Shown in pieces: positions 141 through 10,444 of a DNA stretch of 64,000 nucleotides. Below the pieces are notes generated by a model that was not told the DNA's origin, did not search any database, and was given only the letters and a program-made list of their open reading frames with translations. The DNA is taken from assembly GCA_040218145.1 (NCBI GenBank), contig JAVJQK010000053.1, positions 1 through 64,000 of the forward strand, written 5' to 3'. Within the stretch, counting starts at the first letter, position 1, and the number at the start of each line of letters is the position of its first letter. The position numbers were made by a program, and so were the translations under genes. The stretch comes from Sandaracinaceae bacterium. Lineage in GTDB: Bacteria; Myxococcota_A; Polyangia; Polyangiales; Sandaracinaceae.

Positions 141-152
141 CAACGCGCGAGC

Positions 153-273
153 AAGCGACGCGCGAGCGACCAGCGACGCGCGAGCGACCAGCGACGCGCG
201 AGCGACCAGCGACGCGCGAGCGACCAGCGACGGCGAGCGACCAGCGACGCGCGAGCGACCAGCGACGCGCGAA
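153..273. repeat. 18-bp tandem array (about 6.7 copies)
   Basis: The unit CAGCGACGCGCGAGCGAC is repeated head to tail from 153; the first copy begins with A instead of C, and the copy at 225-241 lacks one base. The array starts about 12 bases after the presumed IS end and runs directly into the 37-bp hairpin core at 274. It has no plausible coding role. Confidence 0.85.
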
Positions 274-438: not shown

Positions 439-469
439 AAAAAAAAAGCGACCCTCCGTCGAGGGTCGC
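439..469 (-). terminator. strong intrinsic terminator reading on the minus strand
   Basis: On the minus strand GCGACCCTC, loop GACG, GAGGGTCGC (469 down to 448) is followed directly by nine T residues (447-439). This is a textbook Rho-independent terminator. No minus-strand protein gene with a recognisable product lies immediately upstream; the nearest is the BNR-type gene whose stop is at 2976, more than 2.4 kb away. The terminator therefore argues for a transcript across 480-2640. Confidence 0.85.
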
Positions 470-2636
470 TTTCTGAAGCTCGCTGGCGTGCAGGGTGGTC
501 ACCCACCGTCGCTCGGTCTCCCGCGCGACCCGCTCCGTACGACACGGGAGTCTCACCCATGCCGCCGGTGGCGGCTGCCCGCCGATGGTGCGAGGCCTCG
601 CACCACCGACACGGCCATCTCCTCGTGAGTCCCGCTCCGGGCGCGTCCGAGGACGCACACCGGGTCACGGCGCGTCGAGCGATCCGAGGATCGCCCTCCG
701 GCTTCGGCAGACTCCGCGCCAGCCCTCCGCGTCCGGCGCCGTCCGAAGACGGCGTCGCGGCGCGATGGGCGGTCTCGACGGTCCTTTTAGACTTGTCTCG
801 ACCTGCTCGCTGGACGGTCACCCGCTGTCTGACATCTCTTCGTCACGACTCGGCGAGCGATGCCCGGGTCCCACCCGATGCCCCGCTCTCCCCACACGGA
901 CCGGCTCACGAGCCGGTCGCCCAAAGGCCGAAGCCATTCGGTCGCCCGAAGGCCAGAGCCTCCGGCCCACCGCGTCCTCTCGAACGCGATGGAGGGGGAT
1001 GGTGGCCACACGCGAACGCACGCCACCACCTCGTCGTCGAGGATCACCGTCATCGTTCCCCCGCCGCGCGAGCGGCCGGGAGGGCGAGAGGGGGTGACCC
1101 CGATGTCTTTCGTCGTACCGATCTCCGAGCCCGCTTCAGGCTCGCAGCGCGCGCCCCTCCTCTCGGAGAGACCCGCTCGGATCCGTGTTCACTCCCCGAA
1201 CGCATGTCTGCGTCCGAGCCGATCGTTCTCTCACGCGCGCCCCCCGACGGCGGCTCGGTTGCCCGAGACCTTCAGGGGTGCTTGCTCCTCTCTCGAGGAC
1301 GCGTGCGATCGTCGCCGAGCTCGCTCCCCCAGCGTTTCACCTGGGGACGCGACTCGATGAGCTAGGTCGCCTCGCGGACGAAGAGCCAGGCTCTCCGCCA
1401 GCGGCCCGAGAGATTCGGGCGATTCGAGGGCACGTGGGTGTGCCTCGAGGGCGACCGCGGTCCTTTCGACCGACGTCTGCAACTCACGATTCATCATTGT
1501 CAAAGATGGGTACCCCGACTTCGTCTGTCTCGGCGCACGCCGCGTCGCGTTCCCACACGACACGAGCCGTTCCGGATGCACGTCGGAACGACGCTTTGGC
1601 GAGCCGGCGAGCCTTCCCGAGGCGTTGTCTTCCTCGAGCGCTCCCTCCGACGTACCGCTGACGCCCCTTTGCCACGCGGGCTTTCCAGTGGATCCTCCGC
1701 GAACGGTTGGTCCACCAGCTCGGCCCACCGATCCCCTCTCGAGGATCACGGGTCGAACCCGTTGGCCTGGGTCTCCCTCCACCGAGCCGCATGCTCGGTC
1801 CCGGCTTCGATGAGACCCGAAGCGCCTTCTCACCCTCCGTCGCTCTTCGGCCTGGTCCGATCGTCTCGGACCTCGCCTGTTCAGCTGGCCTAGTTGGCTG
1901 GCGCCAACGGGCGGCGAAAGGTGTCTGCCGTGTCAACCGACCCTCGGGGCACTGATGCGTGCCTTCAGTCTCCTCCCGACCCTCGGCTGCGCGTGGTGAC
2001 GCGCGGTGAGGACGAGCGCCCCGGTGAAGGGACAGCCCTGCCGACCCGCCCTCCGGAGAGGATGAGTCTGCTCGTTCGGACGACGCCCTCTCGGGACCCT
2101 CTCGGACCTCGAGAAACCTCCGCCCTCTCCCAGAGGACGTCGGCGACGACCCGACCTCGCGATCGGACCGCCCGCGTCGGTGGGACGAGTTGCTCGAGGT
2201 GGCCCGAAGACCTGCCCCCGCCAACCTGCGCCCCGACACCCTCGTCACCCGTCCGTGAGCACGCGGAGCTGGGTAGCCCTGCGCCCCTGCGGGCGGATCG
2301 AGACCCTCCACCGTCCACGAGGGACGGCTTCCGGCCGGGTGCCTTCCCCCCCCGACATGTGTTCCGCCGGAGCTTCCCACACACCGTTCACGCCCCACCC
2401 CGCTCCGAGCACCCCGTCACCGGACATGCCCATCTGCGATGGCTTCGCGCGTTCGAAACGCCTTTGTGACGCGGTGACTCGAGGACCCGTGAAGGGGCTC
2501 CCCTCGAGACCGCGCTCGACCCCCGGCTCAATGACCCTCGCAGGCCCTCTCCCCCGGAGCCGCAGCGCCTCGGAGGCTTCTGCGACCTGAAGGCCCGAAC
2601 TCGTGTTCCGCGACCTTCATTCCGGAGAGTACCCGA
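439..2636 (-). ncRNA. candidate long structured RNA (about 2.2 kb), function unknown
   Basis: No reading frame here on either strand encodes a recognisable protein; the longest frames are Arg/Pro/Ser/Gly-rich with no domain, signal peptide or hydrophobic pattern. The region is crowded with inverted repeats, for example 18-bp palindrome GGTGCGAGGCCTCGCACC near 587, GACCGGCTcacgAGCCGGTC near 900, CGCCGTCcgaaGACGGCG near 738, CCCCAGcgtttcacCTGGGG near 1328, ACCGAGccgcatgCTCGGT near 1780, and GGTCCGAtcgtcTCGGACC near 1854. The minus strand is the purine-rich one, ends in a strong terminator at 448-439, and begins next to sigma70-like elements and DnaA-box-like sites. No known RNA family (rRNA, tmRNA, RNase P RNA) was recognised. 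The start is a guess from the promoter-like element at 2643-2671. The alternative is an untranscribed hairpin-rich spacer. Confidence 0.35.
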
Positions 2637-2642
2637 CGAGTC

Positions 2643-2671
2643 TCCATACGCAACAAGAAAACGCTCATCAA
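2643..2671 (-). promoter_or_regulatory. weak sigma70-like promoter candidate P2
   Basis: On the minus strand TTGATG (2671-2666) and TATGGA (2648-2643) are separated by 17 bases. Matches to the consensus are partial (4/6 and 3/6). The interest is its position at the upstream edge of the hairpin-rich region and the reuse of the same TATGGA hexamer as in P1 (2784-2779). Confidence 0.25.
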
Positions 2672-2760
2672 ACGAATCTTTTTTCATCCACAGGCCATCC
2701 ACAGAAGAACCACACCCCTCCCCACAGGGTTTTTCAGCATGTTTCCACAAGTTCTCCACA
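2645..2760. other. oriC-like region: AT-rich stretch plus five co-oriented DnaA-box-like 9-mers
   Basis: Five 9-mers ending in CCACA lie on the plus strand in 77 bases: TCATCCACA (2684-2692, 8/9 match to TTATCCACA), CCATCCACA (2695-2703, 7/9), CTCCCCACA (2718-2726, 6/9), GTTTCCACA (2741-2749, 7/9) and TTCTCCACA (2752-2760, 8/9). Immediately left, about 2645-2690 is strikingly AT-rich for this genome, with runs such as CTTTTTT, and could be the unwinding element. This is the usual architecture of a bacterial replication origin. No dnaA, dnaN, rpmH, gidA or parAB gene is visible in the window, so it could instead be a DnaA-titration or DnaA-regulated site. Confidence 0.55.

Positions 2761-4686: not shown

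Positions 4687-4713
<27 letters not shown>
4324..4713 (+). CDS. small exported Cys-containing protein with MYXO-CTERM-like tail
   Basis: 129 residues. The ATG at 4324, preceded by an AGGAAAGGA-type ribosome site, gives a clear signal peptide (SLLTVLSLFAVPALAQ). The short mature part has CC and CxxC pairs (ICCGGNCC, CQTCD), then a Ser/Thr/Pro/Gly linker and GGGCSASG, a hydrophobic helix (LALLGMLGALLVW) and RRRA. This layout matches myxobacterial C-terminal sorting signals. Its last 27 bases overlap the end of the convergent cbpM gene. Function beyond surface display is unknown. Confidence 0.8.

Positions 4714-10444
<5,731 letters not shown>

Follow-up and report, generated by a model that had tools for sequence, protein, structure and literature searches.

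What does a bacterial chromosome keep in a 2.2-kb stretch of DNA that encodes no recognizable protein? The question is raised by positions 439 to 2,636 of the window, by which we mean the whole 64,000-nucleotide stretch of Sandaracinaceae contig JAVJQK010000053.1 analyzed here. An earlier note on this DNA had proposed one large noncoding RNA on the minus strand, and comparison with relatives favors that proposal: homologues share the start, the length class, and the terminator and carry a strand-specific structure. We put the probability at about 85% that the protein-free stretch is a stand-alone gene for a structured noncoding RNA of very large size, predicted to occupy positions 439 to 2619 of the minus strand (∼2.18 kb) on the evidence of homologues across the order Polyangiales, structure z-scores, a strand-specific G-U excess, changes in held-out sequences, and noncoding character. 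Computational evidence establishes that the locus has homologues, that its structure is conserved on a defined strand between start and stop signals, and that it is noncoding.

Within the window's own family, plain DNA searches yield weak collinear matches to G002 and G004, where the gene order of the locus is partly shared; near-identical blocks alternate with variable stretches in the alignment of the three, and its indels are frame breaking. Covariance model R1, built on the 5′ block, led to copies in G052 and G135, from two further families. With a model comprising the promoter and 5′ hairpins (R2), copies were found in 49 of the 183 genomes of the order (E ≤ 0.05), and a sample of 377 genomes from the phylum gave none from other orders. 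The final model (R3), built on 41 sequences, detects 62 copies in 61 of the 183 Polyangiales genomes (E ≤ 1.3e-6), one copy per genome in all but one of these carriers, and none in the class's remaining 134 genomes at the same threshold. Carriers found with R2 and R3 span five families (f1, f4, f7, f8, and f12). The host order of myxobacteria is known for very large genomes, and very large complete genomes are among the carriers (G140, 16.04 Mb; G174, contig of 14,782,125 bp). Weaker R3 matches in G011 and G019 are probably true f4 copies, and that in G528 resembles a coding-sequence false positive. A DNA pattern taken from the 5′ block matches contig records named Labilithrix, Polyangiaceae, Sandaracinaceae, and Myxococcales; a match in Oscillospiraceae is attributed to chance. 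Some close relatives have no copy detectable with the models searched (G001, G003, G006, and G007 from the window's family, along with family f5), and in these the RNA has either been lost or diverged beyond the models' reach. Two differing copies lie on two contigs of G127 (L122 and L132), which may be a mixed bin, since its contamination estimate is 8%.

The copies follow a common plan in which DnaA-box-like repeats (TGTGGA) are succeeded by a short stretch rich in AT, then by a promoter of the TTGC...TANTAT-like type, a conserved 5′ double hairpin, 1.7 to 2.4 kb without protein, and a strong intrinsic terminator; in most loci with enough sequence, the protein-free gap after the promoter measures ∼2.2 to 2.7 kb. 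In the window, the predicted promoter (positions 2626 to 2653, minus strand) consists of a −35 element TTGCGT (2653-2648), a 16-nucleotide spacer, and a −10-like TACTCT (2631-2626). It matches the consensus, and its assignment rests on conservation because a generic promoter scan of the window did not call it: the −35 element has TTG in all 41 homologues aligned, followed after 15 to 17 nucleotides by a TA-rich −10. About 10 nucleotides past the −10 element, homologues carry GAAG(G/T)TCGCGG(A/C)ACA, where hairpin P1 begins (GAAGGTCGCGGAACACGAGTTCGGGCCTTC, 2589 to 2618, minus strand); more than 40 sequences show this hairpin to be conserved and covarying. P1 is followed by hairpin P2 (GTCGCAGAAGCCTCCGAGGCGCTGC, 2562 to 2586, minus strand) with its highly conserved AGAAGCC side, in which the pairing GCC/GGC is replaced by GTC/GAC in G014, G037, G126, and others. 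The central core (GAATCGTGAGTTGCAGACGTCGG ... GGCGACCTAGCTC, 1361 to 1492, minus strand) has a long-range stem between 1456-1450 and 1371-1365 that varies with clear compensation, reading GGUCGCC/GGCGACC in the window, GGUUGG/CCAACC in G002, and GGUCACC/GGUGACC in G004. The core signature UUGCAGA(A)GUCG ... CCUAGC, at 1492-1361 of the window, recurs in members of families f1, f8, and f12.

At its far end the gene closes with a strong intrinsic terminator (439 to 474, minus strand) made of a hairpin at 448-469 and a U-run at 447-439. As the earlier note had described, its 9-bp stem is perfect and followed by T at 439-447 (the stem reaches 14 bp if flanking A/T are counted). About 40 homologues have a strong hairpin and T-run at the equivalent place, 1.7 to 2.4 kb downstream of the start, and the terminator stem shows compensated variation among relatives. 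Of the two ends first proposed, the terminator coordinates hold, and the start is moved from near 2640 to nearer 2619, because a conserved 5′ hairpin, with the conserved promoter ahead of it, stands at 2618. A sub-threshold match to the Rfam family BjrC68 at the 3′ terminus of the copy in G052 (L032:12634-12698; 28 bits, gathering score 39) is probably the terminator hairpin.

The density of inverted repeats first noticed in this stretch is real: between about 2620 and 439 the minus strand, which at 56% purine is indeed purine rich, can form 27 stems of at least 6 bp, compared to 10.4 ± 4.4 in dinucleotide shuffles, 12 of at least 7 bp (shuffles, 3.0 ± 2.0), and 6 of at least 8 bp (shuffles, 0.9 ± 1.2). 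When the window copy is folded by itself, significance is confined to the middle and the 3′ part. The Labilithrix-clade alignment folds into ∼760 pairs with 93% of cells paired, and 262 of these pairs occur as at least two Watson-Crick types. Measured over 240-column segments against column shuffles that preserve gap pattern and conservation, this alignment gives z-scores from −3.3 to −12.5 in every segment across positions 80 to 2400, with flanks mostly near 0. Read in the sense direction it has 837 G-U against 118 A-C appositions and an energy of −1572, and read antisense, 306 against 250 and −1215. The G-U excess over A-C appears on one strand only and therefore indicates an RNA read from the minus strand. 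An R-scape-like scan of all column pairs in 10 sequences returned two pairs at E ≤ 0.05 and had little power; for this reason we chose a held-out compensatory test, in which one subset of sequences served to predict the structure and the remainder to score double changes, a design that avoids circularity. Of the held-out double changes, 352 of 502 and 616 of 864 (0.70 to 0.71) preserved pairing, as did 0.60 of those in a second clade, compared to 0.34 to 0.42 in slid-partner controls. The value for the window's own family, 0.50 against a control of ∼0.41, is weak and comes from three distinct sequences only. Covariation, which the earlier note had named as a check on its proposal, is thus found in related clades and is weak in the small family of the window.

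Could the locus instead hold a fast-evolving or unrecognized protein gene? Frames of up to ∼320 codons do stand open in the region, as expected because DNA of 69% GC makes such frames by chance, and they are what might suggest a gene here. Searches of these frames against Pfam and NCBIfam returned no match, and a reading frame shared among relatives, the kind of finding that the earlier note had set against its own proposal, was sought by comparison and not found, with open frames differing from one relative to the next. Moreover, 487 of the 577 internal gaps (84%) in the Labilithrix alignment (A8) are not multiples of three, which means that the region is not protein coding, and the RNA pairing is strand specific. 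The original judgment that these ∼2.2 kb contain no credible protein is upheld by all three lines of evidence (empty family searches, unshared frames, mostly frame-breaking indels), and a protein gene is extremely improbable. The variable stretches that part the conserved blocks might also be taken to separate several small RNAs, or the region to be a cis-regulatory leader. There is, however, a single promoter with a single terminator at the far end, the structural signal runs through every segment between them, and no downstream gene is fixed, so that we regard several small RNAs or a leader in place of one long RNA as quite unlikely. The predicted long RNA may itself be processed after transcription.

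The DnaA boxes raise a different set of alternatives. Five degenerate DnaA-box-like repeats, all imperfect, lie upstream of the promoter in the window (2684 to 2760, minus strand): TGTGGAGAA at 2760-2752, TGTGGAAAC at 2749-2741, TGTGGGGAG at 2726-2718, TGTGGATGG at 2703-2695, and TGTGGATGA at 2692-2684. Among homologues, 38 of 45 have at least one exact TTWTCCACA/TGTGGAWAA within ∼175 nucleotides upstream of the promoter, and exact boxes, which cluster in the upstream 200 nucleotides, are almost absent elsewhere within 3 kb of the locus. DnaA boxes beside an AT-rich stretch at a fixed place could mark the chromosomal origin, oriC, with the RNA as an origin transcript or by-product. That reading gains from a tandem pair of boxes, three bases apart, which a search of 18 genomes located in 8, a single time in each and without exception at the RNA locus, and from the small number of boxes near dnaA genes. 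It is nevertheless unsupported by the positions of dnaA, parB, and parS. The dnaA gene is distant (1.1 Mb in G155, 2.0 Mb in G140, and 0.7 Mb in G055), in G155 and G140 the distance to parS clusters amounts to 17 to 19% of the chromosome, and the genome of the window has parS and dnaA 75 kb apart on another contig; moreover, conserved RNA folding over 2.2 kb is nothing that an origin would need. In the genomes examined, GC skew at the locus gives no usable signal. We consider an origin unlikely. The same boxes, together with the many inverted repeats, would also suit a nontranscribed element that titrates DnaA in the manner of datA, with the repeats acting as DNA, but nearly all boxes are upstream, outside the structured part, G-U far exceeds A-C on one strand only, and both promoter and terminator are conserved, which leaves a titration or repeat element very improbable.

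DnaA-controlled transcription of the noncoding RNA would be a simpler reading of the boxes than an origin. In Escherichia coli, the nrdAB promoter has DnaA boxes upstream, and DnaA is able to activate or repress it (PMC8203912). The RNA locus resembles nrdAB in having boxes upstream of a promoter and differs in that its product would be a noncoding RNA. The fixed position of the boxes upstream of the promoter suggests that DnaA sets transcription of the RNA, a proposal to which we give even odds. Under the model that we favor, RNA polymerase would start near position 2619 at the conserved sigma-70-type promoter and stop at the intrinsic terminator near 440, and we infer a single transcript of ∼2.2 kb (∼2.18 kb here, 1.7 to 2.4 kb elsewhere). 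This transcript would fold into the 5′ double hairpin and the conserved central core, with numerous variable helices at the periphery; its amount, if set by DnaA, would be tied to replication state or growth. A constant neighbor gene was sought across the loci and none was found, flanking genes varying between families. Because neighboring genes are not conserved, a cis-regulatory role is disfavored, and the RNA would most likely act as RNA, in the form of a stable ribonucleoprotein or an RNA-only particle. Function as such a particle, rather than, say, as a regulatory sponge, is a tentative proposal, to which we assign a little under even odds.

Searches with Rfam 15 covariance models, including OLE, GOLLD, and ROOL, gave no match at gathering score for the window copy or nine homologous loci. 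The models of rRNA, tmRNA, RNase P RNA, and 6S RNA had no match at E ≤ 5 in the window or at E ≤ 1 in the nine loci; the predicted RNA is like these in being a structured, housekeeping-type RNA and differs in this lack of a match, which the earlier note, as far as it could recognize, had already stated for the first three. Beyond rRNA, very few bacterial noncoding RNAs exceed 500 nucleotides, and the largest recognized ornate classes measure from 600 to just over 800 nucleotides (PMC12286853). OLE forms a ribonucleoprotein whose function is incompletely known (PMC9723947). Like OLE, the Polyangiales RNA is predicted to be a large structured noncoding RNA with conserved blocks, whereas OLE is ∼600 nucleotides long and found in Gram-positive extremophiles, and the RNA described here measures 1.7 to 2.4 kb and lacks an Rfam match. 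GOLLD (often >800 nucleotides) and ROOL (∼660 nucleotides) are phage or prophage encoded, often near tRNA islands, and no protein partner is known for ROOL (PMC12286853). They share with the Polyangiales RNA a very large, ornate architecture; however, the contigs that carry the Polyangiales copies are chromosomal, genomes almost always have a single copy, and no viral-contig homologue was found with the pattern used. A phage or mobile origin was rejected on this basis, the viral-contig pattern scan having returned three chance matches that are nonhomologous. At two to four times the length of OLE, GOLLD, and ROOL (PMC12286853, PMC9723947), roughly three times that of the largest such RNAs known, and unrelated to them, the predicted RNA would be a new class within a general kind, the large structured RNAs, that is already known.

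The myxobacterial names that we searched for are absent from the main texts of three published structured-RNA screens. Screens that select GC-rich intergenic regions suit AT-rich genomes, which would explain why the RNA has been overlooked so far. If the reading is correct, this would be a deeply conserved RNA class of 2.2 kb, in the size range of 16S to 23S rRNA. The broader picture, of a ∼2.2-kb RNA machine under DnaA, the longest ornate class known in bacteria, built into cell cycle or growth control of a whole order, is possible but falls somewhat short of an even chance. The hosts are cultivable, making the function of the RNA directly testable, and the DnaA boxes offer a concrete first hypothesis on its role.

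The surroundings of the gene have features of their own. Just past the terminator, at window positions 143 to 272, lies an 18-bp tandem repeat (ACGCGCGAGCGACCAGCG; 7.4 copies, 95% matches), and the contig opens, at positions 1 to 108, inside a frame that, by eye, resembles the C terminus of an IS3-type integrase (DYIHFFYNLERRHSLLGYLSPVEFE...). The G182 contig stops ∼180 bases past the RNA, and an insertion element may lie beyond the RNA in both contigs. Elsewhere in the window, a MerR_2 (CbpM-like) gene and then a DnaJ-type chaperone gene occupy positions 4687 to 5996 and are followed by a divergent photolyase-family gene at 6075 to 7526, and this block (4687 to 7526) is partly syntenic with G002.
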